Assembly: GCF_013283835.1 (NCBI RefSeq) | Contig: NZ_CP054052.1 | Location: 620,001 to 684,000 of the forward strand | Direction: 5' to 3' | Length of the DNA: 64,000 nt | Source of the DNA: Poseidonibacter lekithochrous | Lineage (GTDB): Bacteria; Campylobacterota; Campylobacteria; Campylobacterales; Arcobacteraceae | Shown: positions 2,007-19,736 of the stretch, piece after piece | Position numbering within the stretch: position 1 is the first letter of the stretch | Layout: each line of letters opens with the position of its first letter | Notes under the pieces: model-generated | The model's input: the letters and a program-made list of their open reading frames with translations, nothing else | Told to the model about the DNA's origin: nothing | Databases searched by the model: none | Position numbers and translations under genes: made by a program

Positions 2007-2038
2007 AGTATATAATTACTTTATAGCCTGATTATAGC
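2007..2038 (-). promoter_or_regulatory. Promoter P1 with heptamer-repeat operator (pedF operon)
   Basis: Read on the minus strand, GCTATAA-tcag-GCTATAA occupies 2038 down to 2021. After exactly 8 bases comes the -10 box TATACT at 2012-2007. No -35 consensus is visible because the operator occupies that place. It matches the site at 2060-2077 in 17 of 18 positions, in the opposite direction. Confidence 0.85.
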
Positions 2039-2059
2039 GGGTCTGCAGAAATTTAGAAT

Positions 2060-2091
2060 GCTATAATCAAGCTATAAAACTCCATTATAAT
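2060..2091 (+). promoter_or_regulatory. Promoter P2 with heptamer-repeat operator (NitT/TauT operon)
   Basis: GCTATAA (2060-2066), TCAA, GCTATAA (2071-2077), 8 bases, then TATAAT (2086-2091). The start codon follows at 2115 after a GAGGAG ribosome site. It shares an 82-bp divergent region with P1. Confidence 0.85.
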
Positions 2092-2114
2092 AATTAAAAT
2101 TATGAGGAGTTATT

Positions 2115-3083
2115 ATGAAAATTAAATCATTATTTATTATGATGTTTTTATTTATTAATGTTTATGCAAATCAAACATTAAAAGTAGGTGTTTTAGCATT
2201 CGGAACAGTTAACTGGGAATTAGATGTAATAAAACACAATAAACTAGATAAAAAATATGGTATTGATTTACAAGTAATAAAACTAGCCTCTAAAAATGCA
2301 GTATCAATAGCAATACAATCAAAAAGTGTTGATATTATTGTAACTGATTGGATTTGGGTAAATAGACAAAGGTTTGAAGGTAGAGATTATACTTTTTATC
2401 CTTACTCAAGAGCAATAGGTGCTTTATATACAAGTAATAAGGATATTAAAACACTATTAGATTTAAAAGGTAAGAGATTAGGAGTATCGGGTGGAAGTGT
2501 AGATAAGACTTGGTTACTTTTTCAAGCTTATACAAAATCAAAGTACAATCAAAATCTAAAAAAAATAGTTGATCCAGTATTTGCTGCACCTCCAATTTTA
2601 TATAAAAAAATGTTAGATAAATCCTTAGATGCTTCTATTAACTTTTGGCATTTTAACGCAAAATTAAAAGCAAAAGAGTTTCGAAAACTAATTGATGTTC
2701 AAGAGGTATTTAATACTTTTGATATTAGAAATGATGTTCCTTTAGTTGGTTGGACTTTCTCTCAAGAGTTTGCAAAGAATAATAAACAAACTGTGAATAA
2801 CTTTTTACAAGCTTCATATGAAGCAAAAAAACTTCTTAACTCTTCTGAGTCTCAATGGGATAGAATTAGAACTTTAATGAAAGCAAAAAATGATAATACT
2901 TTCAGGGCTTTAAAAGAGGGTTATAGAAATGGAATTGTAAAAGAATTCTCTGCAGATGAAAAAGAAGCAGCTTCAAAAGTATTTGAGCTTTTATACAAAG
3001 AAGGTGGTAAATCTTTAGTAGGTAAAAGTACCCATTTAGATAAAGATACTTTCTGGGATTTTAATCCAGATATTAACTGGTAA
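2115..3083 (+). CDS. NitT/TauT-type ABC transporter, periplasmic binding protein
   Basis: A 322-residue secreted protein with a signal peptide ending at VYANQ, followed by TLKVGVLAFGTVNWELDVI, the usual start of SsuA/TauA-type binding proteins. Further features are KSVDIIVTDWIWVNRQR and LLDLKGKRLGVSGGSVDKTWLL. It would capture a small ligand in the periplasm and hand it to the permease 5 bases downstream. The ligand cannot be read from sequence. Its place in the PQQ island, under the same operator as the dehydrogenase, suggests a role in alcohol or cofactor supply rather than sulfonate or nitrate uptake. It is the first gene of a three-gene operon. Confidence 0.82.
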   Translation: MKIKSLFIMMFLFINVYANQTLKVGVLAFGTVNWELDVIKHNKLDKKYGIDLQVIKLASKNAVSIAIQSKSVDIIVTDWIWVNRQRFEGRDYTFYPYSRAIGALYTSNKDIKTLLDLKGKRLGVSGGSVDKTWLLFQAYTKSKYNQNLKKIVDPVFAAPPILYKKMLDKSLDASINFWHFNAKLKAKEFRKLIDVQEVFNTFDIRNDVPLVGWTFSQEFAKNNKQTVNNFLQASYEAKKLLNSSESQWDRIRTLMKAKNDNTFRALKEGYRNGIVKEFSADEKEAASKVFELLYKEGGKSLVGKSTHLDKDTFWDFNPDINW

Positions 3084-3088
3084 GAATT

Positions 3089-3823
3089 ATGCTTTCTTAT
3101 TCAAGAATTCTTTCTTTAAGTTTTTTCTTTATTTCATGGCAAGTATTAGCAATATTAATTGCCTCTGATACTTTTCCAACTGCCATTGATGTATTTAAAA
3201 GCCTTTTATTTCATTTATTTGAAGGAGAATTACTTGAACATCTTTTTATTACTTTAACTAGAGTATTAATAGCTTTTTCTATTGCAATGAGTTTAGGAGT
3301 ATTCTTTGGTATTTTAATGGGCTCTTTTAAAAGAGTAGATAATGCCTTTGATACTATTTTAGTAATTGGACTAAATATTCCAGCTTTAGTAACTATAATC
3401 ATTTGTTACATCTGGTTTGGGCTTACAGATACAGCTGCACTTTTAGCTGTGATAATAAATAAAGTACCTACAGTAATTGTAACAATAAGAGAAGGTGCTA
3501 GAACTATTGATAGAAAATATATGCAAATAGCTCAAATTTACAAAGTATCAAGATTTGAGACTATCACTAAAGTATATTTACCTCAAATTTATCCATATAT
3601 AATGGCTAGTGCTAGAACTGGTTTATCTTTAATATGGAAGATTGTATTAGTAGTTGAGTTATTAGGTAGAAGTTCAGGAATGGGATTTCAGTTATCAATG
3701 TTTTTCCAGTTCTTTGATATTACTAGTATTATGGCTTATTCTATGGCTTTTATAATTGTGATTTTATTTATTGAAACATATATTTTAAGACCCTTAGATT
3801 TAAAAGCTAACAAGTGGAGATAA
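3089..3823 (+). CDS. NitT/TauT-type ABC transporter permease
   Basis: A 244-residue inner-membrane protein with about six hydrophobic segments and the BPD_transp_1 fold. The coupling loop reads IREGARTIDRKYMQIAQIYKV followed by SRFETITKVYLPQIYPYI, the EAA-like motif that contacts the ATPase. It lies 5 bases after the binding-protein gene and 1 base before the ATPase gene, so the three are translated together. Family recognition is secure and substrate is unknown. Confidence 0.87.
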   Translation: MLSYSRILSLSFFFISWQVLAILIASDTFPTAIDVFKSLLFHLFEGELLEHLFITLTRVLIAFSIAMSLGVFFGILMGSFKRVDNAFDTILVIGLNIPALVTIIICYIWFGLTDTAALLAVIINKVPTVIVTIREGARTIDRKYMQIAQIYKVSRFETITKVYLPQIYPYIMASARTGLSLIWKIVLVVELLGRSSGMGFQLSMFFQFFDITSIMAYSMAFIIVILFIETYILRPLDLKANKWR

Positions 3824-3824
3824 G

Positions 3825-4580
3825 ATGTTAGATATAAATATTAAACATAAAGAGTTTGAAAACTTCCCTATTATAAAAGATTTTAATTTACAAGTTAAAA
3901 CCTCAGAATTTATATCAATAATAGGTCCTTCTGGTTGTGGAAAAACAACACTTCTAAATATTATCTCAAATTTAGATAAGAAGTATCATGGTCATATAAA
4001 ACTAGATTCAAAAGATCAAATATCTAGTAATATTGGTTTTATGTTTCAAGACTCTAGATTAATTCCGTGGCTTAGTGTTTTTGAAAACATTATGTTGGTA
4101 TCACTTAATAAGAATGTTGATGATATTATTCAAGCTTTATGCAATATTGGTTTACATGACTATATTAACTCTTATCCAAAAGAGTTATCAGGGGGAATGC
4201 AAAGAAGAGTAGCCCTTGTACGAGCTTTTATAAATAAACCTAAATTAATACTTTTAGATGAACCTTTTATTTCTTTGGATCATCCAAGTGCACAAGCTTT
4301 AAGAAAAGACTTTTTGAGTATGTGTAAAGAGTATTTACCTACAGTTATTTTAGTTACACATGATTTAGAAGAGGCAATTTCTTTATCTAAAAGAATTATA
4401 TTTTTAGATTCAAAGCCTATGAAAATAGTATTAGATTATAAAAACAATAATGATTTTTCAAATAATTTAAATCATGAAGATATTCAAAATATAAAAGCAG
4501 AACTTCTAGATGAAAATCCTTTTATCCTAAGTGGTAAGCTAAAAGAAAATCCTGCTTCTAATTTATTCTCAATCATATAA
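3825..4580 (+). CDS. NitT/TauT-type ABC transporter ATP-binding protein
   Basis: A 251-residue ABC ATPase. Visible motifs are Walker A GPSGCGKTT, Q-loop MFQDSRLIPWL, signature LSGGMQRR, Walker B LILLDEPF and the switch His in LVTHDLEEA. The RLIPWLSVFENI stretch is typical of the SsuB/TauB group. About 45 residues after the ATPase core look poorly conserved and asparagine-rich. It is the last gene of the importer operon and is followed by an inverted repeat that probably ends transcription. Confidence 0.88.
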   Translation: MLDINIKHKEFENFPIIKDFNLQVKTSEFISIIGPSGCGKTTLLNIISNLDKKYHGHIKLDSKDQISSNIGFMFQDSRLIPWLSVFENIMLVSLNKNVDDIIQALCNIGLHDYINSYPKELSGGMQRRVALVRAFINKPKLILLDEPFISLDHPSAQALRKDFLSMCKEYLPTVILVTHDLEEAISLSKRIIFLDSKPMKIVLDYKNNNDFSNNLNHEDIQNIKAELLDENPFILSGKLKENPASNLFSII

Positions 4581-4581
4581 G

Positions 4582-4618
4582 TTTATGTATATACTTTAAT
4601 TAGAAGCATATACATAAA
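4582..4618. terminator. Probable terminator between convergent operons
   Basis: An 11-bp perfect inverted repeat (4582-4592 with 4608-4618) with a 15-base loop, 1 base after the ATPase stop codon. The stem is AT-only apart from one pair and the T run is weak, so the call is tentative. No gene is seen from 4619 to 4660. Confidence 0.45.
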
Positions 4619-4660
4619 AAGTGCTAAGAAGTATTACTAATATAAATAGTTTTTTCATAA

Positions 4661-5809
4661 CTACTCTTTACATTCAACTTGAAATGAAGCAATACCTAAT
4701 GTATCCAAATCATTTGTAGGATGTAAGAATCCATCTTGAGGAGATGTTGATACTAATGCTCTTGGATGCATTAAAGATACTGGTTGTCTAAGTTGTCCAT
4801 TAAACTCTCTAAAGCTTAGTTTTCTTCCTTTATATGCTGCAAGCTCAAACTTATCAGAATATAAAAAATCTAAATTTGATTTAAAATCTATTTTTTTTGT
4901 TTTAGTAATAAGTGTAACAATTGATCTAGTTGCTACCCAAGAAGAATAATCTTTTGAATTCATAGCTCTTTTTGCAAATTTTTTAAATCTCTTTTGCATT
5001 TGTGCTGCTCCCCACTGTTCAATAACATGACTCCATGCTTGTGCTTTTAACCCTTGTGTTCCAGCTACTGGTCTAGGAAGCCAAGTATTAAAATATAAAT
5101 ACTCACCAAAATCACCATGATAATCTGCTGTTAAAACCACATCATAATCACTACTTTGAGTAAGTGCTGGAATTTCTAGTTGAGCTTTTCTTCTAATATC
5201 AGCATTTAATTTCCATATTTTTTCTTCTATGATTTTCCCACCAAATTTTTTAGCAGAAGCTCTTAATGATTTAGCAATTAATTCATCTTTTTCATTACTT
5301 CCTTTTATTAAAAGCCATTTTTTTAGATTTCTTTTTATTAAAAACTGAATTAAGGCATCACTTTCCATACTATTACTAAGACTTGTATGTAAAAGATTTT
5401 TATTACAAGCATTTATTCTTAAGTTATCATCTTTATTTGTGGCATTTAAAAATATAGTATTTCCTGCTTCTTTTAGATTTACTAACTCTTTTAGAAGTTC
5501 TGTTTGCACATTTAGAATTACATAAATATTTTCATTACTAGACCAAGCTTTGAATTTTTTGATTAAATCTTCTTTTTTATATGAAATTTCTTTATCTAAA
5601 ATATATTTTTGATTTAAAAATCTTGCACTTTTATTAGAATCTTTAATTGCTAGCTGTATTCCTTTTAAAGCGCTATCTTTAGGTTCTTCAATTACATTAG
5701 ATAAAGTAGGAGGTCTTTTTACTTTTTGCTCTAAATATAAAATGTTTACTTCTAAAACATTTGCTTTAATAAATGAAAATAAAAGTGTTAGAAATAGTAC
5801 TATTCTCAC
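4661..5809 (-). CDS. PQQ-dependent alcohol dehydrogenase-associated ABC binding protein (PedA-type)
   Basis: A 382-residue periplasmic protein related to branched-chain amino acid binding proteins. After a signal peptide, the mature start NVLEVNILYLEQKVKRPPTL and SNVIEEPKD, with ALKGIQLAIKDSNKSARFL, matches the family of substrate-binding proteins found with PQQ alcohol dehydrogenases (the TIGR03863 type). Near the C-terminus SLMHPRALVSTSPQDGFLHP is also typical. In Pseudomonas putida this type of binding protein belongs to PedA1A2BC, which is needed for efficient lanthanide-dependent growth. The start is GTG at 5809 with AAGGA upstream. It is transcribed alone, away from its presumed partners, from promoter P3. 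Confidence 0.85.
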   Translation of the reverse strand: MRIVLFLTLLFSFIKANVLEVNILYLEQKVKRPPTLSNVIEEPKDSALKGIQLAIKDSNKSARFLNQKYILDKEISYKKEDLIKKFKAWSSNENIYVILNVQTELLKELVNLKEAGNTIFLNATNKDDNLRINACNKNLLHTSLSNSMESDALIQFLIKRNLKKWLLIKGSNEKDELIAKSLRASAKKFGGKIIEEKIWKLNADIRRKAQLEIPALTQSSDYDVVLTADYHGDFGEYLYFNTWLPRPVAGTQGLKAQAWSHVIEQWGAAQMQKRFKKFAKRAMNSKDYSSWVATRSIVTLITKTKKIDFKSNLDFLYSDKFELAAYKGRKLSFREFNGQLRQPVSLMHPRALVSTSPQDGFLHPTNDLDTLGIASFQVECKE

Positions 5810-5832
5810 TGTTTTTCCTTCTTTTTTATTTT

Positions 5833-5866
5833 AGTATATATAACTTTTATAGCTTCAGTTTAGCAA
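5833..5866 (-). promoter_or_regulatory. Promoter P3 with heptamer-repeat operator (PedA-type binding protein)
   Basis: On the minus strand: GCTAAAC (5864-5858), tgaa, GCTATAA (5853-5847), 8 bases, TATACT (5838-5833). The operator is the left arm of a perfect 20-bp inverted repeat whose right arm is the operator of P4. Confidence 0.85.
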
Positions 5867-5874
5867 ATTTTATA

Positions 5875-5908
5875 TTGCTAAACTGAAGCTATAATCATTT
5901 ACTACAAT
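5875..5908 (+). promoter_or_regulatory. Promoter P4 with heptamer-repeat operator (small exported protein)
   Basis: GCTAAAC (5877-5883), TGAA, GCTATAA (5888-5894), 8 bases, TACAAT (5903-5908). It is the mirror image of P3; the arms 5847-5866 and 5875-5894 are perfectly complementary around an 8-base centre. Confidence 0.85.
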
Positions 5909-5935: not shown

Positions 5936-6355
5936 ATGAAAAAAATTGCAATGATTGTAATTACGTTATTTATAGCAGTGGGATTTGCACAGGCTAAGAA
6001 CTTAAAAGGTCTGTTACATTCTAAAACAACATTAGAGCCTATAACTATTAGTGCAGGTGAACCATTAGCCAATAAGCCTTATAAACTAGAAGCAGGAAAA
6101 TACTACAAGCTTATTCTAAAAAGTGATGGTTCAAGAGAAGTTCCTATTGTTGGTGCAGCTTTTTTCAGAAATATCTGGGTGAATCAAGTATCTATTAATG
6201 ATATCGAAGTAAGACCATTAGGAATTGATAGTTTTGAATTTGATGATGAAGGTGAGATTGAACTTACTTTTATACCTATTAAACCAGGAACATTTACTTT
6301 AGGACTTCCCTCAGCAAAAAGTGATAGAGAAAGAGCTACTTTTATTGTTGAATAA
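5936..6355 (+). CDS. Small exported protein of the PQQ island, function unknown
   Basis: I do not recognise this 139-residue protein. It has a clear signal peptide (cleavage near AQAKN), and the mature part of about 118 residues looks all-beta. The pattern LEAGKYYKLILKSDGSREVP, then VPIVGAAFFRNIWVNQVSIN and a closing IELTFIPIKPGTFTLGLP, resembles a cupredoxin-like sandwich. It has no cysteine and no His-Cys-Met copper site, so blue-copper electron transfer is unlikely. No EF-hand loop is visible either. It sits alone behind operator P4 between two parts of the PedA1A2BC-like transporter, which suggests periplasmic ligand handling or dehydrogenase maturation. A strong ribosome site (AAGGAG) precedes the ATG. 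Confidence 0.75.
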   Translation: MKKIAMIVITLFIAVGFAQAKNLKGLLHSKTTLEPITISAGEPLANKPYKLEAGKYYKLILKSDGSREVPIVGAAFFRNIWVNQVSINDIEVRPLGIDSFEFDDEGEIELTFIPIKPGTFTLGLPSAKSDRERATFIVE

Positions 6356-6448: not shown

Positions 6449-6480
6449 GCTAAATTCATGCTATAAAGTTTCTTTATAAT
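6449..6480 (+). promoter_or_regulatory. Promoter P5 with heptamer-repeat operator (propeller-ABC operon)
   Basis: GCTAAAT (6449-6455), TCAT, GCTATAA (6460-6466), 8 bases, TATAAT (6475-6480). Start codon at 6509. Confidence 0.85.
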
Positions 6481-6508: not shown

Positions 6509-7468
6509 ATGCTAAAGAAAATTGGATTAATTACTATTTTAAGTTCATGCCTATTGGCAGATACAATTTTTGTTTCAAATGAGAAAGACAACACTATTTC
6601 TGTAATTGATTCAAATACAAATAAAGTTATAAAAACTTATGAAGTAGGTCAAAGACCTAGAGGAATTACTCTAACTAATGACTATTCAAAATTATATATT
6701 TGTGCAAGTGATGATGATACAGTACAAGCTATGGATACAAAAACTGGAGAAATTTTATATAACCTTCCATCAGGTGAAGACCCAGAACAGTTTGCTTTGC
6801 ATCCAAATGGCAAAGAGCTTTATATCTCAAATGAAGACGATGGTATTGTAACTGTTGTTGATACTGAAAAAAAAGATGTAATTACACAAGTTGAGGTTGG
6901 CATTGAACCTGAGGGAATGGCTGTAAGTCCTGATGGATCTGTAGCTATTAACTCATCTGAAACATCTAATTTCTTACATTGGATTGATACTAAAACTAAA
7001 GAGATTGTTCATAATACTTTAGTTGATGAAAGACCAAGACATATTGAGTTTTCAAAAACTGGTGATAAGGTTTGGGCATCAAGTGAGATTGGTGGAACTG
7101 TAGTGGTTATAGATACAAAAACTAAAGAATCTATTTCAAAAATTTCTTTTAAAATTCCAGGAGTATATAAAGACAAAATTCAACCAGTTGGGATTAACTT
7201 AACTTCTGATGGTAAATATGCTTTCGTTGCACTTGGACCTGCGAATCATGTAGCAGTAGTTGATGCAAAAACATACGATGTAATTAAGTATTTATTAGTA
7301 GGAAAAAGAGTTTGGCAATTGGCTTTATCAAATAATGAAACAAAACTATATACTACAAATGGTGTTAGTGGTGATGTGTCAATTATTGATGTGAAAAACT
7401 TAAAAGTTGAAAAAACTATTAAGGTAGGAAGATATCCTTGGGGGATTGCGGTTAAACCGTCAAAATAA
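6509..7468 (+). CDS. PQQ-associated YVTN-type beta-propeller protein
   Basis: A 319-residue exported protein made of seven or so repeats of the YVTN/NHL propeller kind (IFVSNEKDNTISVIDSNTNK, then LYICASDDDTVQAMDTKTGE, LYISNEDDGIVTVVDTEKKD and so on). This is the PQQ-catabolism-associated beta-propeller (TIGR03866 type), a periplasmic companion of the PQQ-linked ABC transporter in Pseudomonas, where it is one of the PedA1/PedA2 proteins. The N-terminus MLKKIGLITILSSCLLA contains LSSC, so it may be a lipoprotein instead of being cleaved after LLA. It heads the operon with the ATPase and permease; the next start codon lies 4 bases past its stop. Confidence 0.86.
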   Translation: MLKKIGLITILSSCLLADTIFVSNEKDNTISVIDSNTNKVIKTYEVGQRPRGITLTNDYSKLYICASDDDTVQAMDTKTGEILYNLPSGEDPEQFALHPNGKELYISNEDDGIVTVVDTEKKDVITQVEVGIEPEGMAVSPDGSVAINSSETSNFLHWIDTKTKEIVHNTLVDERPRHIEFSKTGDKVWASSEIGGTVVVIDTKTKESISKISFKIPGVYKDKIQPVGINLTSDGKYAFVALGPANHVAVVDAKTYDVIKYLLVGKRVWQLALSNNETKLYTTNGVSGDVSIIDVKNLKVEKTIKVGRYPWGIAVKPSK

Positions 7469-7472
7469 TTCT

Positions 7473-8192
7473 ATGGAAAAACAACTTGAAATAAAAAATA
7501 TATCTTATAAGTATGATAAAGAACTTGTTCTGAAGAATATAAATTTAGAGATAAAAAAAGCTTCTTTTTTAGTTTTACTTGGACTTAATGGTGCTGGTAA
7601 ATCTACATTATTTGCATTAATTACTAGATTATTGAAGATTCAATCAGGAGATATTTATATTGATTCTTTTCATATAAGTGATTATAAAAATGCTTTAAAA
7701 AATATTGGTATTGTATTTCAAGAACCAACACTTGATTTAGATTTAAGTGTAAAGCAAAATTTAGTTTTTTCAGGCTCTTTAAAAGGTCTTTCTTTTAAAC
7801 AGACAATGGACTCGATAAAAGAAGAAATTAAAACTTTAGATTTAGAAGAAAAACTAGATGTAAAAGTTCGAAGTTTAAATGGTGGTCATAGAAGAAGAGT
7901 AGAAATACTAAGAGCTTTAATAAATAGCCCAAAACTTTTACTTTTAGATGAAGCAACATCTGGACTTGATATAAAAAGTAGATATGAAATTATTGCTTAT
8001 ATAAAAGGCTTAGTTGAAAAAAGAGGTATATCAGTTTTATGGATTACGCATCTTTTTGATGAGATAGATAATAATGATGAGGTTGCTATTATTAAAAAAG
8101 GCGAAATAATATCTACAGGTTTAGCAAAAGATTTAATAAAAGAAAATAATATGGACTCATTAACACAAGTTTTTGAATCCTTAACAAAGTAA
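7473..8192 (+). CDS. pedB: PQQ-associated ABC transporter ATP-binding protein (PedB-like)
   Basis: A 239-residue ABC ATPase of the type linked to PQQ alcohol dehydrogenases (TIGR03864 type). Walker A is GLNGAGKST, the Q-loop is VFQEPTLDLDLSV, Walker B is LLLLDEAT and the switch His is in WITHLFDE. The signature loop reads LNGGHRRR instead of LSGGQ, which is usual in this subgroup. The ATG at 7473 was chosen because it aligns with the family start; an in-frame TTG at 7446 would overlap the propeller gene. In P. putida the matching protein is part of PedA1A2BC, needed for growth at low lanthanide levels; in Methylorubrum the analogous ATPase is LutE. The symbol is by homology. Confidence 0.82.
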   Translation: MEKQLEIKNISYKYDKELVLKNINLEIKKASFLVLLGLNGAGKSTLFALITRLLKIQSGDIYIDSFHISDYKNALKNIGIVFQEPTLDLDLSVKQNLVFSGSLKGLSFKQTMDSIKEEIKTLDLEEKLDVKVRSLNGGHRRRVEILRALINSPKLLLLDEATSGLDIKSRYEIIAYIKGLVEKRGISVLWITHLFDEIDNNDEVAIIKKGEIISTGLAKDLIKENNMDSLTQVFESLTK

Positions 8193-8197
8193 AAAAT

Positions 8198-8980
8198 ATG
8201 AGAAATTTATATTATTGTGCCCAAGGGATTATTTACAAAGAACTACTTAGATTTATAAAACAAAAATCTAGATTCTTTTCTGCTTTAGTTAGACCACTTT
8301 TATGGTTATTTATTTTCTCACTTGGATTTAAAACTGCTTTAGGATTAGCAATAATTCCACCTTATGAAACATACATTACTTATGAAACTTATATAGTTCC
8401 CGGACTTATTGGAATGATACTTTTATTTAATGGAATGCAAAGTGCATTAACTATGATTTTTGATAGGGAAATGGGCTCAATGAAAATACTTTTAACTTCA
8501 AGTATTTCAAGAAGTTTTTTACTATTTTGTAAAATGTTTGCAATGGCAATTGTGTCAACTATTCAATCAATTGTATTTCTAATCATTGCATATTTTTATG
8601 GAATACAGTTAGAACTTTTAGGCTATATTTTAGTGATTCCTGTGATTTTATTCACTTCAATTATTTTAAATGCTTTTGCTTTATTTATTTCTTCTGTTAT
8701 AAAACAATTAGAGAATTTTGCATCTGTTATGAACTTTGTAATATTCCCAATGTTCTTTTTATCTTCAGCTTTATATCCACTTTGGAAAATAAAAGATTCA
8801 AGTGTTTTTATGTATGAAGTTTGTTTATTCAATCCTTTTACATATATAGTGGAATTTATTAGGTTTACGCTTTATTTAAAATTTGATTATTCTAATTTCT
8901 TTATCTTATTACTTACTTTTGTTATTGTATTAAGCGCCGCTTTTATGGGCTATAATACAAAAAATGTATTAAAAAAATAG
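8198..8980 (+). CDS. pedC: PQQ-associated ABC transporter permease (PedC-like)
   Basis: A 260-residue ABC-2 type membrane protein with six predicted helices. The segments YIVPGLIGMILLFNGMQSAL, FDREMGSMKILLTSSISRSF and FASVMNFVIFPMFFLSSALYPLW are typical of the ABC-2 permeases of PQQ alcohol clusters (TIGR03861 type, PedC). ABC-2 folds are more common in exporters, so the direction of transport is not fixed by sequence, but the Pseudomonas counterpart acts in lanthanide-dependent growth. It lies 5 bases after the ATPase gene. Confidence 0.82.
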   Translation: MRNLYYCAQGIIYKELLRFIKQKSRFFSALVRPLLWLFIFSLGFKTALGLAIIPPYETYITYETYIVPGLIGMILLFNGMQSALTMIFDREMGSMKILLTSSISRSFLLFCKMFAMAIVSTIQSIVFLIIAYFYGIQLELLGYILVIPVILFTSIILNAFALFISSVIKQLENFASVMNFVIFPMFFLSSALYPLWKIKDSSVFMYEVCLFNPFTYIVEFIRFTLYLKFDYSNFFILLLTFVIVLSAAFMGYNTKNVLKK

Positions 8981-9014: not shown

Positions 9015-9046
9015 CCTATATTCAGGCTATATTCCTTTTGTATACT
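9015..9046 (+). promoter_or_regulatory. Promoter P6 with heptamer-repeat operator (dehydrogenase-pqq operon)
   Basis: CCTATAT (9015-9021), TCAG, GCTATAT (9026-9032), 8 bases, TATACT (9041-9046). The first heptamer is the weakest of the set but the spacing is identical. Confidence 0.8.
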
Positions 9047-9095: not shown

Positions 9096-10868
9096 ATGTA
9101 TAAGGATAATTTTCTAAAAAGTGTTGCAAAAGTTACACTTACTGCATTAATGGCTACGGGTGCAGTTAGTACATTATCTGCTAAGGCTGGATATTCACCA
9201 GTTACTGATGCGGATATTGCAAATGATGCTAAAACAGTTGAAGATGTTGTTACTTATGGATTAGGACAAAAGGGACAAAGATATTCTACGTTAACACAAG
9301 TTAATAAAGATACTGTAAAAAATCTAGTACCTGTATGGAATTTTTCATTTGGTGGAGAAAAACAAAGAGGACAAGAGGCACAACCTTTAGTTAAAGATGG
9401 GGTTATGTATGTAACTGCTTCTTATTCTAGAATGTATGCTATTGATATTGCTACTGGTGAAGAAATTTGGCAATATGATGCAAGATTGCCAAGTGCAATT
9501 TTACCTTGTTGTGATGTTATTAATAGAGGACCAGCTTTATACGATAATTTAGTTATTTTTGGAACATTAGATGCTAAATTAGTTGCTCTTGATAGAAAAA
9601 CTGGAAAAGTTAAATGGAAGAAAAAAATTGCTTCTTATAAAGAAGGATACTCTTACACAGCAGCTCCTTTAATTGTTAAAGGTTTATTAATCACTGGTGT
9701 TTCTGGTGGTGAGTTTGGAGTTGTAGGTAAAGTTGAAGCTAGAAATCCAAAAACTGGAAAACTAGTATGGTCTAGACCAATGGTTGAAGGTCATATGGGT
9801 TACTTAAATGGTAAAGAAAATGGAATTACAGGTCAAACTAACGCTTCTTGGCCAGGTGATTTATGGAAACATGGTGGTGCTGCTCCTTGGAATGGTGTTA
9901 CTTATGATCCTGATACAGATTTAATTTTTGTACCAACTGGAAATCCTGCACCATGGAATTCACATGATAGACCAGGTGATAACTTATATTCTGCATCAAG
10001 AGTTGCAGTAAATCCTGATACTGGAAAAATTGTTTGGCATTTCCAAACAACTCCAAATGATGGTTGGGATTACGATGGTATGGCTGAGTTCGTAGCATTT
10101 GAATATAAAGATAAATCTGGAAAAATGGTAAAAGCTGGAGCTACTGCTGATAAAAATGGTTTCTTCTATGTATTAGATAGAACTACTGGTAAATATATTA
10201 GATCTACTCCTTTCGTTGAAAACATTACTTGGGCAAAAGGAATGGATAAAAACGGAAGACCAATTGTAAATGAAGATAATAGACCAGGAAATCCAGGTGA
10301 TGCTAAACAAGGTAAAACTGTTTATTCAACTCCTTCATTCTTAGGTGGTAAAAACTGGAACCCTATGGCATTCTCTCAAAAAACTGGATTATTTTATGTT
10401 CCAGCAAATGAGTGGGGAATGGATATTTGGAATAAACCTGTTAATTATAAAAAAGGTGCTGCTTATTTAGGTGCTGGATTTACTATTAAACCAACATTCA
10501 AAGATCACATCGGTGCTTTAAAAGCTATTGATCCTAAAACTGGAAAAACTAAATGGACTTACAAAAACAATGCTCCATTATGGGGTGGTGTTTTAACTAC
10601 TGAAGGTGGATTAGTATTTACTGGTACTCCTGAAGGAAAACTACTTGCATTTGATGATGAAACTGGAAAAATCCTTTGGGACTTTCAAGTTGGAACTGGA
10701 ATCGTTTCTTCTCCAATTACTTGGACTGAAAACGGTGAACAATATATCGCAATCGTTGCAGGTTGGGGTGGAGCTGTTCCTTTATGGGGTGGTGAAGTTG
10801 CAAAAACTGTTAAATATTTAAATCAAGGTGGATCAGTTCACGTATTTAAATTATTTAAATCAAAATAG
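9096..10868 (+). CDS. PQQ-dependent alcohol dehydrogenase, predicted lanthanide-using
   Basis: A 590-residue periplasmic eight-bladed quinoprotein that oxidises primary alcohols with PQQ and passes electrons to cytochrome c. The signal peptide ends near residue 30. The vicinal disulfide over PQQ is C138-C139 (LPCCD), with conserved GGEF (metal ligand E206) and TGNP (ligand N283). The catalytic aspartate is D325 in NDGWDYDG, and D327 follows two residues later. In XoxF, ExaF and PedH this extra Asp coordinates a lanthanide, whereas calcium enzymes have Ala or Ser there. No fused cytochrome domain is present, so it is a type I enzyme that would use the PedF cytochrome. Length and overall pattern fit ExaF/PedH-like ethanol dehydrogenases better than XoxF. 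It is directly followed by pqqA. Confidence 0.92.
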
Positions 10869-10904: not shown

Positions 10905-10979
10905 ATGGAATGGAAAAAACCAACTTACGTAGATAATAGATTTGGATTTGAAGTTACAATGTACATTTGTACTGTATAA
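10905..10979 (+). CDS. pqqA: PqqA, precursor peptide of PQQ
   Basis: A 24-residue ribosomal peptide that supplies the Glu and Tyr from which PQQ is built. It reads MEWKKPTYVD at the start and contains E16-V-T-M-Y20, the conserved E-x3-Y pair cross-linked by PqqE. The MWKKP-like start and FEVTMY core are close to the Klebsiella and Pseudomonas peptides. A strong ribosome site (AAGGAG) lies 7 bases upstream. It sits 36 bases after the dehydrogenase stop and is followed by an intrinsic terminator before pqqB, which would keep its dose above that of the enzymes. Confidence 0.96.
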   Translation: MEWKKPTYVDNRFGFEVTMYICTV

Positions 10980-10988
10980 GGTTTAAAA

Positions 10989-11019
10989 GGTTAGGGACTT
11001 AGGTCTCTAATCTTTTTTT
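10989..11019 (+). terminator. Intrinsic terminator or attenuator after pqqA
   Basis: A 10-bp stem (10989-10998 with 11003-11012, two G-U pairs), a TTAG loop and seven T's (11013-11019). It lies between pqqA and pqqB with no clear promoter after it, so partial read-through is likely. Confidence 0.8.
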
Positions 11020-11022
11020 CAT

Positions 11023-11055
11023 TTAAATAAACTTGATATTTAATAGTTTATTTAA
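11023..11055 (+). repeat. Inverted repeat in the pqqB leader
   Basis: A perfect 11-bp inverted repeat (11023-11033 with 11045-11055), AT-rich, with an 11-base loop. It sits between the attenuator and the pqqB ribosome site (AAAGGAG). It could be an RNA hairpin or a protein site. Confidence 0.55.
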
Positions 11056-11081
11056 CTGAAGAAAAGACAAAGGAGTGAGTT

Positions 11082-11996
11082 TTGAAAATACAAGTATTAG
11101 GTTCAGGAGCAGGGGGAGGATTACCCCAGTTTAATTGTAATTGTGATAATTGCAAAGCCTATAGAGAAGGAAAAAAATCCGTAAAAAGAAGAACTCAATC
11201 CTCAATTACTCTAAGTGAAGATGGTGAGAACTGGGTATTATTTAATGCCTCTCCAGATATTTTGGAACAAATCCATAATTCACCTTTTTTACATCCCACT
11301 CAAAAAAGAGAAACAAAAATAAAAGCTATTGTTTTTAATGATGCTCAAATTGATCATACTACTGGGCTTTTAATGTTAAGAGAAGGCTGTCCACATCAAG
11401 TTTATTGTACTAAAGAAGTAAATGATGAATTAAATACATCTTTCCCTTTATTTAAAATGTTAAAACATTGGAATGGTGGAGGTACATTTTGGAATGAAAT
11501 TACACCAGATAATAAAGCTTTTGAAATTCCAGTTATGCCAAATCATGATTTTTATGCATTACCATTAATTTCAAATGCGCCACCTTATTCAAAATATAGA
11601 GATACTCCAAGAAGTGGAGATAATATTGGACTTGTAGTTCATAATAAAAAAACAGATAAAAAACTGTTTTACCTTCCAGGACTTGGGGGTTTAGAAAATC
11701 ATGTTTTAGAAGCTATGAAAGATGCTGATGTGATTTTAATAGAAGGTACACTTTGGACAAATGATGAGATGATTAAAGGTAATTTCTCTTCAAAACTAGG
11801 TACTGATATGGGACATATGCCACTAAATGGTCAAGGTGGATTAATTGAAATCTTGGACACTTTAGAGAAACCTAGAAAAATTTTAATTCATATTAATAAT
11901 ACTAATCCTATTTTAGATGAAGAAAATGATGAATATCATGAGTTAATATCTCATGGAATTGAAATCTCATACGATGGTATGAGCATAGAAATATAA
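11082..11996 (+). CDS. pqqB: PqqB, metallo-beta-lactamase-fold hydroxylase of PQQ synthesis
   Basis: A 304-residue cytosolic protein that hydroxylates the tyrosine-derived part of the PQQ intermediate. The N-terminus VLGSGAGGGLPQFNCNCDNC gives the family's cysteine cluster C19, C21, C24. Further motifs are ASPDILEQI, NDAQIDHTTGLL in place of the usual HxHxDH, and TDMGHMPLNGQGG. The length is normal. The start is TTG at 11082, placed by the strong AAAGGAG site and the family alignment. It heads the pqqBCDE set, all within 19-base gaps or overlapping. Confidence 0.95.
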   Translation: MKIQVLGSGAGGGLPQFNCNCDNCKAYREGKKSVKRRTQSSITLSEDGENWVLFNASPDILEQIHNSPFLHPTQKRETKIKAIVFNDAQIDHTTGLLMLREGCPHQVYCTKEVNDELNTSFPLFKMLKHWNGGGTFWNEITPDNKAFEIPVMPNHDFYALPLISNAPPYSKYRDTPRSGDNIGLVVHNKKTDKKLFYLPGLGGLENHVLEAMKDADVILIEGTLWTNDEMIKGNFSSKLGTDMGHMPLNGQGGLIEILDTLEKPRKILIHINNTNPILDEENDEYHELISHGIEISYDGMSIEI

Positions 11997-12014
11997 CTTA
12001 CAAAAGGAAAAGAA

Positions 12015-12770
12015 ATGAACAAGAAAATGAATGAACTATTAAGTAAAGAAGAGTTTGAAACTAAGTTAAGAGATATGGGTTCAATGTATCATATTCATCA
12101 CCCTTTTCATGTAAGAATGTATGAAGGTTCGTGTACTAAAGAAGAGATTCAAGGTTGGGTAGCGAATAGATTTTATTATCAAACTGCAATTCCAATTAAA
12201 GATGCAGCTATTATGTCAAATAATCCTCCAATTGAAGATAGAAGAAAATGGGTTGATAGAATTTTAGATCATGATAGTGAAGGTGGAGGAATTGAAGCTT
12301 GGCTTGATTTAGGAGTTGCAGTTGGACTTAAAAAAGAAGATTTACTTTCTCATAAATTTGTATTACCAGCGGTTAAATTTGCAGTTGATGCATATATTAA
12401 TTTTGCAAAACAAAGACCTTGGAAGGAAGCTGCAATGTCATCTTTAACAGAGATGTTTGCACCTCAAATTCATCAACAAAGACTTGATACTTGGCCAAAA
12501 AATTATCCTTGGATTGAACAAGATGGATTAAGATATTTCCAAAAAAGATTAAGTGAAGCAAGACGAGATGTTCAGCATGGATTATCTATGACCTTAGAGG
12601 AATTTGATACTATTGAATTACAAAATAGAGCATGCGAAATATTACAGTTTAAATTAGATATTCTATGGACAATGTGTGATGCTTTATACTTAGCATACGA
12701 GTTAAAAAGACCACCATACTTTAATATTAAGGATTGTAATGCAACTAGAAAAATCACTTGTGATCAATAA
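12015..12770 (+). CDS. pqqC: PqqC, pyrroloquinoline-quinone synthase
   Basis: A 251-residue cofactorless oxidase that performs the final ring closure and eight-electron oxidation to PQQ, with a haem-oxygenase-like fold. Recognised stretches are [58 protein letters not shown] and [13 protein letters not shown]. The AAAGGAAAAG site precedes the ATG. Its last 32 bases overlap the start of pqqD in another frame, so the two are translationally coupled. Confidence 0.96.
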
Positions 12771-13008
12771 TCACTTTCAGCTTCAATGGGAAGAGAAACA
12801 AGATTGTTTTGTATTGTTATATCCAGAGGGAATGGTTCAATTAAGCCAAAGTGCCGGTGAAATTCTAAACCTTTGTGATGGGAAAAATAATACTCAAAAT
12901 ATTGCAGCTTTATTAGAAGAGAAGTTTAATACTAGTGAATTACTAAATGATATTATTGAATTTTTAGAAGATGCTATGAGTAGAAAGTGGGTACTTTATA
13001 ATGAATAG
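12739..13008 (+). CDS. pqqD: PqqD, PqqA-binding chaperone
   Basis: An 89-residue RRE-type peptide chaperone that presents PqqA to PqqE. Typical features are the [20 protein letters not shown] opening, [16 protein letters not shown], and [13 protein letters not shown]. It overlaps pqqC by 32 bases at its start and pqqE by 8 bases at its end. It is a separate gene here, not fused to PqqC as in some methylotrophs. Confidence 0.94.
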
Positions 13009-14104
13009 TGAAATAAAACCTCCTTTATGGATACTTTTGGAATTAACTCATAAGTGTCCTTTGGAGTGTTCATACTGTTATAATCAGTTAGATTTTACAA
13101 ATACACAAGATGCTATGAGTAAAGATGACTGGTTTAGAGTTATGAATGAAGCTCGTGAAATGGGAGCTGTTCAACTTGGTATTTCAGGTGGGGAGCCTTT
13201 ATTAAATAAAGATATTGTAGAGATTGTAGAACATGCAAATGATTTAAAGTTTTATACAAATCTTATTACATCAGGAGTTGGTGCTCCAAAAGGAATAGTA
13301 AAAAAGCTAAAAGATGCAGGACTTAAGACGGTTCAACTTGGTATTCAATCACATGATGAAGATACTATGACTTTAATTACTAACAATAAAAACTCATATA
13401 GAGAAAAAATTGCCTTTGCTAAAGAAGTAAAAGAAGCAGGGCTTCAACTAATTATTAATACTTGCATCACAAGACAAAATATTCATCAAGTGGGTGAAAT
13501 CATTGAGTTTGCTGATGAATTAGGTGGAAACTATCTTGAAATTGCAAATATTCAATATTATGGATGGGCATTAAAAAATATAAATGCACTTTTACCAACG
13601 CAAGAACAATTAGATGAAGCAAAAAAAGTAACTGATTATTATAGGTCAAAAGAAAAAGCTATGAAGGTATTTTTTGTAGTACCTGATTATTTTGCAGATA
13701 GACCAAAAGCCTGTATGAATGGATGGGGAACTACATTTTTAACTATTAACCCTGATGGTGTTGCTCTTCCATGTAATACAGCAAATACTTTGCCTTTAGA
13801 TTTTCCAAGTGTAAAAGATTTTTCAGTTGAGCAAATATGGAATGAATCTCATGCCTTTAACTATTTTAGAGGTGATAAGTGGATGAAACCTACTTGTAGA
13901 ACATGTGATGAAAAAGAGAAGGATTTTGGTGGATGTAGATGTCAAGCTTTTGCATTAACAGGGGATATGAATGAAGCAGATCCTGTTTGTTCAAAATCTG
14001 AATTTCATCATGTAGTAACAGATAAAGTAGAAGAGAGTTTAAATACTCATGATGCAAAAATCTGGTATAGAAATAGAAAAAACTCTTTAGCTCTTCAAAA
14101 ATAA
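13001..14104 (+). CDS. pqqE: PqqE, radical SAM enzyme that cross-links PqqA
   Basis: A 367-residue radical SAM protein with a SPASM domain; it forms the Glu-Tyr carbon bond in PqqA. The SAM cluster ligands are C19, C23 and C26 (THKCPLECSYCYNQ). GISGGEPLL is the GGE motif. The C-terminal auxiliary-cluster cysteines lie in KACMNGWGTTFLTINPDG, LPCNTAN and CRTCDEKEKDFGGCRCQAF. The ATG overlaps the pqqD stop. It is the last PQQ gene; no pqqF, pqqG or other peptidase follows. Confidence 0.96.
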   Translation: MNSEIKPPLWILLELTHKCPLECSYCYNQLDFTNTQDAMSKDDWFRVMNEAREMGAVQLGISGGEPLLNKDIVEIVEHANDLKFYTNLITSGVGAPKGIVKKLKDAGLKTVQLGIQSHDEDTMTLITNNKNSYREKIAFAKEVKEAGLQLIINTCITRQNIHQVGEIIEFADELGGNYLEIANIQYYGWALKNINALLPTQEQLDEAKKVTDYYRSKEKAMKVFFVVPDYFADRPKACMNGWGTTFLTINPDGVALPCNTANTLPLDFPSVKDFSVEQIWNESHAFNYFRGDKWMKPTCRTCDEKEKDFGGCRCQAFALTGDMNEADPVCSKSEFHHVVTDKVEESLNTHDAKIWYRNRKNSLALQK

Positions 14105-15348: not shown

Positions 15349-16008
15349 CTAGTTTGGTCTTTCTACCATATAACCACTACCTCTAATATTTTTAATAAAA
15401 TCTTCTTTTAATACTTTTTTTACTCTATTAACTTCTGCTCTAATTGTTGCATTATCAATATAATCATCATTCCAAACATAATCTCTAAACATATCATATT
15501 GAACAACAAGACTTCTATTATGAGCTAATAATTCAATAATTTGAATTTGTCTTTTTGGTAAAATATGTGGTTCATTATCAAATAATAAAGTCATAGTCTC
15601 TGAATCATATGAATAATGTTTTGATAAACGTTTATGTTTTTGTGGAACAATACTTGTTTTTAGAATTTTATTTATTCTAATTGTTAACTCTTTTAAATGA
15701 AATGGTTTTTTCAAATAATCATGACATCCAATATCAAAGGCTCTTTGAATATCTTCTATATCTATTAATGCTGAGATATAAATAGTTGGTATCATTCTTT
15801 TTTGTTCATGTAATCTTTCTAATATTGTAAAACCATTTATATCGGGTAAATTAATATCTAAAATCAAAAGATCAAACTTTTCTTCTTCTAAAAGTTCCAT
15901 ACACTCATGACCTGTTGTTGCATTTTTTACAACATGACCAGTAGAATTAAGATATTCACTAATCATTTCATTTAACATTGAATCATCTTCTAATAATAGT
16001 ATTTTCAT
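15349..16008 (-). CDS. OmpR-family response regulator, candidate regulator of the PQQ island
   Basis: A 219-residue regulator. The receiver domain (about 1-115) has acidic residues D8 and D9, phosphorylation site D51 (LLILDINLPDING) and the conserved Lys in YLKKPF. The C-terminal winged helix (about 125-217) reads LPKRQIQIIELLAHNRSLVV, then ATIRAEVNRVKKVLKEDFIK and NIRGSGYMVE, as in PhoB/OmpR. Proteins of this family bind tandem 7-bp sites with 4-bp spacers, the exact layout of the operators found here. It overlaps the kinase gene by 4 bases (ATGA). Control of the PQQ genes is inferred from position and site geometry. Confidence 0.9.
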   Translation of the reverse strand: MKILLLEDDSMLNEMISEYLNSTGHVVKNATTGHECMELLEEEKFDLLILDINLPDINGFTILERLHEQKRMIPTIYISALIDIEDIQRAFDIGCHDYLKKPFHLKELTIRINKILKTSIVPQKHKRLSKHYSYDSETMTLLFDNEPHILPKRQIQIIELLAHNRSLVVQYDMFRDYVWNDDYIDNATIRAEVNRVKKVLKEDFIKNIRGSGYMVERPN

Positions 16009-17921
16009 TTTATCTCCTTAAAAGTATATGTAAAGGAAGCCCAGTTTTCACCAGATTGTAATTGAATACCAACATTCTCTTCACTACAAATACGCTTTAC
16101 TAAATTTAATCCAAGACCGAAACCTTCTTGTACATTAGTCTCTTCTCTATAATACTCTTCAAATATTTTTTGTTGGTCAAGTATTTGTTTAGATTTACTC
16201 TCAATTATGAAGTTGCAATCTTGATTTATAATATTAAGACTTACATATATTACTTCATTAGCTAAAGTATATTTAATTGCATTTGTTAGATTATTATCAA
16301 CAATTCTTTGTAATTTAGTCTCATTAAAGTTTATTATAATTTCATCATTTGAAGCTTTAAAATTAAAAGTAGATTTAAATTTAATAGCAGATTGAGAAAA
16401 GAAATCAATTCTAGATCTTACAAAATCAACTAGGTCAATTTCATGTACTGCTTCATTTACTTGATCTTTTTTAATTAAATAAGATAAATCATCATATATA
16501 CTAGAAACATTTTTTAGTGCAACTTCTATATTTGAAAGAAATTTATTTTTTCCATGTTGTATTTCAAACATTTCAATATTTCCCATTATTATTGATAGTG
16601 GGGTATTTGTTTCATGCACAGCATGTTTTAAAAACTGCTTTTGAGAGTTTAATAAGTTTTGAGCATAAATCTTACCTTTTTCTAACTCTTTGGATTGGTC
16701 ATTATAATCATTTGATGATTGCTGTATTAAATGTGTTAATGCTTGTAGGCTTCTTGCATGTTCACTAATACTTGTAGTTTCATTAGATATTTCGCAAGAA
16801 TTTTTATCAAAACTCTCATTACAATCTTCTTCACTTAAAGCAACAATAGTCAAGGTTTGGTTTAATAACTCATTATGTCCATCTTTATGGTAAAACTCCC
16901 CATAAGTAAAGAATCCAGAAGTTGGAGCAATATCAGAGAAAGGTTTTATTTCAATATCAATCATACTTGGCATATATCTTCTTCTTGCCATACATGAATA
17001 TATGAAGAAAGATTCAGCTTTTTGAATATTACAATGTTCAAATAAAGATTCAACAGGATTATTCATAATAAGTTCAACATTACCAAATCCTAGTTTTACC
17101 ACATCTCCTTTATATAAGTTGCCTGCAAAACTAAGACTTCCATCTTTATGTTTTTTTATAACAGCTCTTGCAATTGGAAGATTATTCCTTTTTACTATTA
17201 AAGGAAATTCAATGCCAGTTGCTGGAAGTGCTTTTGCTACATACTCTCCTAAGTACTTCTCATAAAAGTCTAAAGGTTTCATTCCTGATATCTCATATAC
17301 TCTATTATCTTTTACTTTATCTATTGTATGTTCAATACCAATAGGTGACCAATTAAAGTTATAAGCATTCTGTGCTTTTAAAGTATTAGAGTTTAAAGCA
17401 ACAGCAACTGCTCCATTTGTTAATATCTTATCTTGTGAAGAGATGAATGTCTGTTTGAAGTTTGCGTTGTCTCCTGCCATTCCTCCTGACACAGGTACTG
17501 TATTATTAACAGCTTCAATACCTTTTAGAAAAGCTTCTCCATTTGTTTTAGCACCATCAGTGAATGTTATAAGAAGTTTAGTATCTTCTTGGCATAACTC
17601 TTTTGCTAGGTCATATCCATTTTTAAAAGAGTCTTTATTTTTTACAAAATATGTTTTTAGACTAGTGTTTTTAAAAACAGATATAGAGATAATAGTTTTT
17701 TTTGTAGATACTTGATCATTATTAATTTCACCATCTGTTGATGAACCTATACATATAGATTGAGGAAGTTCTTCTATTAGTGTATTTATAATATTTTGTA
17801 AAATGGATTTTTTACTTCCGCAAAATACTTGTATAAGTACAGATTTTTCGTTTTTAAATAATGAAAAGTCTATTAATTCTGTTAATGACTGTTGTTTTAA
17901 TGTATAGTTAAATGTCTTCAT
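16005..17921 (-). CDS. FIST-domain sensor histidine kinase
   Basis: A 638-residue cytoplasmic kinase from the ATG at 17921. The first about 370 residues are FIST_N plus FIST_C sensor domains (FCGSKKSILQNIINTLIEEL, SICIGSSTDGEI, TFTDGAKTNGEAFLKGIEAV, PVSGGMAGDN, SCMARR). A coiled stretch follows, then HisKA with H436 in HAVHETNTPLS, and an ATPase domain with NNLTNAIKYT and GFGLGLNLVKRI. No membrane segment is seen. FIST domains are thought to sense small ligands. An upstream in-frame ATG at 18008 would add 29 basic residues with no family match. The box TACAAT lies 5 bases before the chosen ATG, suggesting a leaderless message. Confidence 0.88.
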   Translation of the reverse strand: MKTFNYTLKQQSLTELIDFSLFKNEKSVLIQVFCGSKKSILQNIINTLIEELPQSICIGSSTDGEINNDQVSTKKTIISISVFKNTSLKTYFVKNKDSFKNGYDLAKELCQEDTKLLITFTDGAKTNGEAFLKGIEAVNNTVPVSGGMAGDNANFKQTFISSQDKILTNGAVAVALNSNTLKAQNAYNFNWSPIGIEHTIDKVKDNRVYEISGMKPLDFYEKYLGEYVAKALPATGIEFPLIVKRNNLPIARAVIKKHKDGSLSFAGNLYKGDVVKLGFGNVELIMNNPVESLFEHCNIQKAESFFIYSCMARRRYMPSMIDIEIKPFSDIAPTSGFFTYGEFYHKDGHNELLNQTLTIVALSEEDCNESFDKNSCEISNETTSISEHARSLQALTHLIQQSSNDYNDQSKELEKGKIYAQNLLNSQKQFLKHAVHETNTPLSIIMGNIEMFEIQHGKNKFLSNIEVALKNVSSIYDDLSYLIKKDQVNEAVHEIDLVDFVRSRIDFFSQSAIKFKSTFNFKASNDEIIINFNETKLQRIVDNNLTNAIKYTLANEVIYVSLNIINQDCNFIIESKSKQILDQQKIFEEYYREETNVQEGFGLGLNLVKRICSEENVGIQLQSGENWASFTYTFKEIK

Positions 17922-18011
17922 AAAATATTGTAACACAGAAATTAAAATTTTCGAAGTTTTTTTTGCCTTAAAAGGTCGAAAAATTGGTAATTCCTTACGA
18001 AAAAACACAGC

Positions 18012-18065
18012 GCTATACTCATGCTATATTTGGGCTATAATTAGGCTATAAATGTCATGTAAACT
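18012..18065 (+). promoter_or_regulatory. Promoter P7 with four tandem heptamers (aldehyde dehydrogenase)
   Basis: Heptamers at 18012 (GCTATAC), 18023 (GCTATAT), 18034 (GCTATAA) and 18045 (GCTATAA), each exactly 11 bp apart, end at 18051. After 8 bases comes TAAACT (18060-18065) as a weak -10. The untranslated leader to 18142 is about 70 bases. Confidence 0.82.
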
Positions 18066-19722: not shown

Positions 19723-19736
19723 AAAAAGGTGAAATT

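Follow-up and report, generated by a model that had tools for sequence, protein, structure and literature searches.

A shared 11-bp-period element as predicted operator of an alcohol- and aldehyde-oxidation regulon in Poseidonibacter lekithochrous and its relatives

Transcriptional activators of the PhoB/OmpR type combine a receiver (REC) domain with a winged helix, and their 7-bp repeats with 4-bp spacers (11-bp period) replace the -35 box upstream of the -10 box. We analysed a stretch of 64,000 nucleotides from Poseidonibacter lekithochrous (contig NZ_CP054052.1, positions 620,001 to 684,000; hereafter the window) that carries a pyrroloquinoline quinone (PQQ) island with seven promoters marked by an 11-bp-period element, together with the genes of an OmpR-type response regulator (RR1) and an adjoining histidine kinase with a FIST domain. 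This operator architecture belongs to a familiar class: the domains of the regulator and the layout of the repeats are like those of PhoB/OmpR activators, and binding of RR1 is predicted from this anatomy, whereas the heptamer, the regulon and the occurrence of up to four repeats in a row are different here. Very probably the element is the operator of RR1, which, phosphorylated by the FIST kinase, would activate the seven island promoters and additional genes as one alcohol-to-acid regulon. In the proposed mechanism an aldehyde or its precursor would act on the FIST domain, the adjoining kinase would phosphorylate RR1, and RR1 would bind the heptamers head-to-tail, one monomer per 11-bp turn and two to four in a row, replacing the -35 box and recruiting RNA polymerase to the -10 box 8 bases downstream. 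RR1 would thereby switch on, in its own genome, the seven island promoters and probably an NADH dehydrogenase, a porin and a NosR-like/ApbE pair.

Operator anatomy, conservation and linkage to RR1

Each of the seven sites consists of GCTATAA-like heptamers with a spacer of exactly 4 bases, followed after exactly 8 bases by a -10 box. All seven were found where the sequence-only reading had placed them and with the spacers exact; the spans it gave held for five sites but not for the divergent pair, whose 32-mers are two bases shorter (5833-5864 minus and 5877-5908 plus). Compared with GCTATAA-N4-GCTATAA-N8-TATAAT, the sites carry 0, 1, 2, 2, 3, 3 and 4 mismatches, the most divergent (4 mismatches) being the dehydrogenase promoter at 9015, whose first heptamer is CCTATAT, while the aldehyde dehydrogenase promoter holds four heptamers (18012-18051). 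The gap between -10 box and start codon is 23-28 bases at five of the promoters; it widens to 49 bases for the dehydrogenase and to 76 for the aldehyde dehydrogenase. The reported lack of a visible -35 box was borne out, TTGACA (at most 2 mismatches, 16-18 bases) being present in 2 of 95 arrays versus 13 of 95 random places. As a separate observation, the divergent operators form an 18-bp perfect inverted repeat within positions 5847-5894 (GCTAAACTGAAGCTATAA on both strands).

To gauge how specific the element is, we scanned the genome, a single 3.57-Mb contig, with the heptamer-N4-heptamer-N8-TANNNT arrangement that the sequence-only reading had proposed for this purpose. The pattern GCTAWAH-N4-GCTATAW-N8-TANNNT with one mismatch gave 13 matches, two of them other registers of the four-heptamer array, and hence 11 distinct places (the seven sites and four more), versus none for the reversed pattern; a similar frequency upstream of unrelated genes was not what the scan returned. 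A looser pattern (two ideal heptamers, -10 TAHAMT, three mismatches) matched 19 times versus 6 in the reversed control, and its seven matches outside the 11 places had scores of at most 4.9 with the weight matrix described below. The same geometry emerged from 915 kb of loci (the window plus L009-L088, with a few short overlaps, mostly fetched owing to the motif or its regulator): pairs of the GCTAWA core occurred 204 times at a distance of 11 bases and 59 times at 22, with at most 8 at any other distance from 7 to 27, and TAHAMT stood exactly 8 bases past the array in 95 of 155 arrays, with at most 6 for any other spacer from 0 to 19.

The distribution of RR1 was determined in 89 Arcobacteraceae genomes of at least 90% completeness, with a match threshold of E 1e-120 for the dehydrogenase. 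All 26 genomes in which the PQQ dehydrogenase was detected also have RR1 (truncated at a contig end in G046), versus 28 of the 63 others (Fisher 1e-7); since related genomes are not independent, p-values are guides only. Mean operator numbers per genome at two mismatches were 5.7 with RR1 and PQQ dehydrogenase (n = 26; reversed control 0.46), 1.1 with RR1 alone (n = 28; 0.14; this class includes G049, which has pqqE, and the contrast is weakened accordingly) and 0.77 with neither (n = 35; 0.26).

The sequence-only reading had named the OmpR-type regulator as the reader of the sites, and this assignment is supported by the position of the operator between the kinase and aldehyde dehydrogenase genes even where no PQQ dehydrogenase accompanies them. 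With at most 4 mismatches, the operator was found between the two genes in 20 of 20 RR1-bearing genomes without a detected dehydrogenase, against an expectation of 0.03 derived from the remainder of the same loci. Seven of the remaining eight such genomes were also testable (G086 was left out because its FIST kinase ends at a contig edge); six scored 26.9-42.4 (two with five mismatches) and G095 was weak at 12.4, so that the aldehyde dehydrogenase operator is present in 27 of 27 testable relatives, one of them weak. A weight matrix trained only on the first 20 promoters, whose sites were picked by likeness to the previously noticed motif and none of which came from the own genome, ranked the seven sites first in the window on both strands (19.8-34.3). 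The next unrelated place scored 3.4, with two other registers of the four-heptamer array in between (16.9 and 14.9), and the best score in 200 Markov windows was 18.9 (median 10.0). The predicted regulon is older than the island: aldehyde oxidation forms its ancestral core, into which the PQQ island seems to have been recruited.

Conservation at the island promoters themselves was assessed in loci from seven genomes of the own genus, some of them partial, and from G011, G012, G031, G034, G048, G056, G058, G064, G075, G078, G080, G081, G087 and G098, an orthologous promoter being counted positive at a matrix score of at least 10 near the start of the orthologue. The counts are given in Table 1; the cytochrome exception was G075 (9.3), and the two misses for the PQQ-system binding protein were an open reading frame (ORF) cut by the locus end (G002) and an operator inside an over-long ORF call (G081). 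Gene order and contigs vary among the island-bearing genomes, and in G064 the element is kept before the dehydrogenase, cytochrome, importer and aldehyde dehydrogenase though RR1 lies on other contigs. A second, ExaA-like PQQ dehydrogenase (e.g. L084:12269-14155, with WDfS) has its own operator in all four relatives tested.

Further operators in the genome and in other families

The predicted regulon is wider than seven promoters, with at least four more sites in the own genome: at 3457402 (score 26.3) before an NADH-dehydrogenase-like flavoprotein, at 896862 (23.1) and 895942 (11.9) before a porin, and at 162281 (18.8) before a NosR-like/ApbE pair (479 bits with the NosR model, below its cut-off of 1000). 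The flavoprotein operator occurs in 18 genomes including the own and the porin operator in six further genomes; both sets were collected by way of the operator itself, so that these numbers are not rates. A Y1-type transposase (L012:3999-4769, about 895998-896768 of the own genome) lies between the strong operator at 896862 and the porin, and the weaker operator stands directly before the porin. Ethanolamine ammonia-lyase, which makes acetaldehyde, is preceded by the operator in three close genomes (scores 13.9-17.4).

FIST chemoreceptors occur in 52 of 397 genomes. Within the kilobase upstream of the chemoreceptor gene, tested in 40 genomes, the operator turned up in 13 of the 22 that encode the FIST kinase (the site being identical in three of them) and in none of the 18 that do not, the opposite strand giving 0 of 40; site L038 (G001), which scores 3.5, was left out of the counts. 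Within Arcobacteraceae, all four tested genomes that have the PQQ dehydrogenase carry the chemoreceptor operator, and none of the four lacking the enzyme does. As for the 12 chemoreceptor genomes outside the upstream test, G414 and G436 have the operator, and G447 and G325 have none of their own. G081 has an operator (28.0) as well, at a FIST protein with an ORF truncated by the end of the locus. The chemoreceptor gene of G034 and G048 (91% identical) lies inside the PQQ operon.

Less can be said of a few other matches. Three of 20 fetched (L190, L193 and L195) precede genes without a clear role, L200 precedes a gene whose likeness to the XdhC-like gene of L029 is limited to size and start, L202 precedes genes without an assigned identity, and L203 has no site above 10. 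Good operators at L034:3757-3788 (minus, one mismatch) and L037:2523-2554 (plus, two mismatches) aim into the 3' end of an opposite-strand gene, of cytochrome-c type at L034, with no long ORF on the operator strand at either locus; these operators may perhaps drive antisense or small RNA.

Of the 397 genomes searched across the class, 52 have a FIST-kinase match at E 1e-80, a match that is only weak in nine of these 52. Twenty loci outside the family were fetched and L027 was re-read. All 11 loci in which a molybdenum aldehyde oxidoreductase of 906-943 residues adjoins the FIST pair have the operator before it (scores 17.8-29.8); they belong to one genus (g47), and the enzyme was assigned by hidden Markov model in one locus and by 86.5-94.5% identity in the others. 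In L135 the operator precedes a tungsten-type aldehyde ferredoxin oxidoreductase (AFOR; score 24.2), and in L027, from a third family, an aldehyde dehydrogenase (18.1). L133 has an operator (13.1) before a FIST chemoreceptor, and L136 has only a weak one (7.1); L132 and L214, which belong to another family and have PQQ genes adjoining the FIST pair, begin inside the dehydrogenase, so that its promoter lies outside the locus. Counting Arcobacteraceae, where it also marks the PQQ-island promoters, the same putative operator is thus placed in three families of the class before genes for aldehyde oxidation that are linked to RR1 or an orthologue.

Sensor, signal and competing explanations

The set of operator-marked genes, with its aldehyde chemistry, suggests that the FIST sensor detects an aldehyde, and we put the chance that the signal is an aldehyde (or an alcohol yielding it) sensed by this domain at about even. 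The FIST part of the kinase was modelled with a predicted local distance difference test (pLDDT) score of 87.7, and its nearest solved folds were four human FBXO22 chains (Z 20.0-20.5; best 258 aligned, root-mean-square deviation 3.4, 10% identity), followed by chorismatase (Z 13.0) and cyanuric acid hydrolase (12.3); a model cut after residue 344 had pLDDT below 50 from residue 282 on and lost the Cys/Glu region. Profile searches with four alignments (A2, A3, A4 and A5) against the PDB did not reach FBXO22. Cys339, Arg342, Arg343, Gly365, Glu371 and Asn383 were identical in all 26 FIST domains aligned (20 kinases, one of them a paralogue, and six chemoreceptors, the two groups being ~21% alike). 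In the available portions of PMC13316043, PMC11208438 and PMC13370883, aldehydes form a hemithioacetal with Cys326 of FBXO22, and Glu362 close by is required. Shared fold, Cys-Glu distance (32 versus 36) and conservation make Cys339/Glu371 candidate equivalents of Cys326/Glu362. A tentative and rather doubtful extension would make FIST an ancient aldehyde sensor: Cys339/Glu371 would reversibly capture an aldehyde in hemithioacetal form, in the way Cys326 of FBXO22 captures drug-like aldehydes, and would drive both gene expression (through the kinase) and chemotaxis (through the chemoreceptor, often in the regulon), new alcohol or ethanolamine pathways being wired in by gaining the operator.

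Several observations, on the spread of the element, on the sensor and on a paralogue of RR1, weigh against the regulon proposed here. The sequence-only reading had joined all seven promoters in one regulon, which stands insofar as the island promoters carry the operator across several genera, but the beta-propeller site is less constant, being found in only 10 of 16 relatives and absent in four of the own genus. Nine of the 22 FIST chemoreceptors in genomes with the kinase are without an operator. Outside the family, L128, L130, L132, L134 and L137 hold the FIST pair with no element at four mismatches, and L131 has only a weak operator (10.4) at its aldehyde dehydrogenase. Genome-wide counts do not distinguish RR1-bearing genomes without the PQQ dehydrogenase from genomes without RR1 (p 0.41), since the majority of sites at their aldehyde dehydrogenases deviate by at least three mismatches; the excess over the reversed control in the genomes without RR1 means that some sites exist without RR1.

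With regard to the sensor, every aligned kinase has His227 and His374 (20/20), so that haem in the kinases is possible, and the related FIST protein NosP senses nitric oxide by haem according to the accessible part of PMC12570481, where NosP and NosK share the FIST/kinase partnership; the ped cluster of P. putida includes a homologue of NosP, PP_2663, in the portion available of PMC12997753. The FIST kinase might thus sense nitric oxide via haem as NosP does, the regulon answering nitric oxide and not aldehyde. We consider this unlikely, since the kinase reached 70.8 bits with the NosP model NF041558, short of its cut-off of 450, since both histidines are replaced (by Lys and Gly) in the six aligned chemoreceptors whereas Cys339 and Glu371 are kept in all 26 domains, and since the content of the regulon is aldehyde chemistry.

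The paralogue of concern is RR2, whose recognition helix is nearly identical to that of RR1; the residues DNATIRAEVNRVKK.L are identical in the two and close in RR3, another paralogue of the own genome, which lies at 786486 and adjoins an acetate-permease-like gene. RR2 (~3168263; 65% identical to RR1) belongs to a second FIST kinase/regulator pair at 3166365-3168907 with no obvious target adjoining. It is very unlikely that RR2 or RR3 is the main reader of the operator. Likeness of the helices speaks for it, as does the surplus of sites in genomes without RR1, most of which have an RR3-level match; yet of the 89 family genomes only those of the own genus and G011 have a listed RR2-level match (~65% identity), operators are dense in genomes without RR2, and it is RR1, not a paralogue, whose pair adjoins the aldehyde dehydrogenase. 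RR2 or RR3 as sole regulator was rejected on their distribution; the RR2 pair could cross-act on RR1 sites.

Activation by RR1 also has to be set against repression, in which RR1 or another protein would block RNA polymerase until a signal releases it. The element overlaps the place of the -35 box, which a repressor would cover too, but there is no visible -35 box to block and the -10 box recurs at exactly 8 bases; such fixed spacing to a bare -10 box fits an activator, and repression is highly improbable. An alternative sigma-factor element was rejected, as two to four repeats (one array of six in a loose count) at 11-bp steps are unlike a -35 box. Finally, chance similarity in AT-rich intergenic DNA, where at a GC content of 28% AT-rich heptamers do arise by chance, was rejected as a practically negligible explanation on the reversed-pattern control (0 versus 13) and on conservation at orthologous promoters across genera.

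Island genes and comparison with described systems

The genes behind the seven promoters, the regulator and the kinase are listed in Table 1.

Table 1. Operators and genes of the PQQ island (window positions; relatives, orthologous promoters carrying the operator among those read)
Feature	Position	Strand	Downstream gene or supporting match	Matrix score	Relatives
Operator, -10 TATACT	2007..2038	-	cytochrome c PedF-like / SBP_3 operon	19.8	18/19
Operator, -10 TATAAT	2060..2091	+	NMT1-type ATP-binding cassette (ABC) importer operon	20.8	16/16
Operator, -10 TATACT	5833..5864	-	PQQ-system ABC substrate-binding protein	21.7	13/15
Operator, -10 TACAAT	5877..5908	+	139-aa protein	22.6	8/8
Operator, -10 TATAAT	6449..6480	+	beta-propeller / PedC-type ABC operon	23.7	10/16
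Operator, -10 TATACT	9015..9046	+	PQQ dehydrogenase (PedH-like), probably with pqqABCDE	27.7	16/16
Four-heptamer operator, -10 TAAACT	18012..18065	+	aldehyde dehydrogenase - DUF779	34.3	12/12
SBP_bac_3 periplasmic protein	692..1558	-	domain match		
Cytochrome c-550 PedF	1562..1978	-	TIGR04494, 176.3 bits (cut-off 122)		
ABC importer: NMT1-type binding protein, permease, ATPase	2115..4580	+	domain matches		
PQQ-system ABC substrate-binding protein	4661..5809	-	TIGR03863, 431.7 bits (cut-off 413.6)		
139-aa protein	5936..6355	+	no family match		
PQQ-associated beta-propeller, ABC ATPase, PedC-type permease	6509..8980	+	TIGR03866 and TIGR03861 above cut-off		
PQQ alcohol dehydrogenase, PedH-like	9096..10868	+	TIGR03075; best solved relatives 6zcv/6zcw; WDyD motif		
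pqqA (10905-10979), pqqB, pqqC, pqqD (12739-13008), pqqE	10905..14104	+			
OmpR-type response regulator RR1	15349..16008	-	Response_reg, 95.9 bits; Trans_reg_C, 41.1 bits (cut-off 26.2)		
FIST-domain histidine kinase	16005..17921	-	FIST, FIST_C, HisKA, HATPase_c		
ExaC-like aldehyde dehydrogenase and DUF779 protein	18142..20105	+			

Residues D8, D9, D51, S79 and K101 of RR1 (phospho-acceptor Asp and switch residues) are invariant in 12 aligned sequences, and RR1 reaches 96.8 bits with the PhoB equivalog model TIGR02154, below the cut-off of 296.2. H465, E466 and N572 of the kinase are invariant in 20 kinases; its start at 17921 (Met30 of a 667-residue ORF) agrees with relatives better than the GTG at 18008, and its closest kinases among named records come from Arcobacter sp. 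UBA7394 and other Arcobacter/Poseidonibacter records (the own record perhaps being left out). A TPR-type protein (14182-15216) lies between pqqE and the regulator; it matched no NCBIfam family at E 0.001, and relatives have other genes at that place. The ABC ATPase of the beta-propeller operon falls just below the cut-off of TIGR03864 (286.2 versus 302.25), and the aldehyde dehydrogenase is a near relative of the ExaC acetaldehyde dehydrogenase, its match to model NF050026 not reaching the cut-off (820.6 versus 900 bits).

The WDyD motif of the dehydrogenase aligns with WDfD of 6zcv/6zcw, which we take to be PedH, and with WDyD of XoxF (6dam), whereas ExaA (1flg) has WDfS and is without the second Asp; such an additional Asp, two positions past that of WD, presumably marks lanthanide use, as in PedH and XoxF. 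The PedH-like and ExaA-like dehydrogenases could both answer one regulator, unlike the lanthanide switch of Pseudomonas.

PQQ alcohol dehydrogenase is an aldehyde-producing enzyme. If the proposed regulon is correct, one FIST sensor would join aldehyde-oxidising enzymes of three unrelated types (NAD, molybdenum and tungsten-type), and the same regulon would add aldehyde-producing enzymes (this dehydrogenase and ethanolamine ammonia-lyase), an NADH dehydrogenase and a chemoreceptor. A regulon devoted to one chemical class, together with an invariant cysteine, would make the general question of the FIST ligand testable with one protein and one small molecule, and aldehyde sensing, if true, would suggest a natural ligand class for human FBXO22. 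No paper on this regulon was found in open-licence PMC texts, which is weak evidence given that scope.

As far as the consulted part of PMC12997753 describes it, the Pseudomonas ped/exa cluster shares with the island a PQQ dehydrogenase, a PedF cytochrome, a PedC-type ABC system and an ExaC-type aldehyde dehydrogenase, and one of its ends likewise has a porin, a NosP protein (FIST, per the available part of PMC12570481) and a kinase. Its regulators are of the LuxR type (AgmR/ErbR and PedR2; same portion of PMC12997753), whereas one OmpR-type regulator and a fused FIST kinase are present here; no LuxR-type AgmR/PedR was found among the 20 ORFs of window positions 1-20105, the part of the genome to which this search was confined and whose single response regulator is of the OmpR type. 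In NosP-NosK/NahK, as described in the accessible text of PMC12570481, a FIST domain likewise controls a soluble histidine kinase; here FIST is fused to the kinase, the output is OmpR-type and the NosP model is not reached. Acinetobacter EmaSR, in the available portion of PMC9603970, is also a two-component control of ethanol use, but with a PAS/membrane kinase, a LuxR-type regulator and another motif. Human FBXO22, in the sections available of the three reports on it (PMC13316043, PMC11208438 and PMC13370883), has in common with the sensor the FIST fold and a reactive Cys with a nearby Glu, and differs in being a ubiquitin-ligase adaptor with 10% identity to the FIST part of the kinase.

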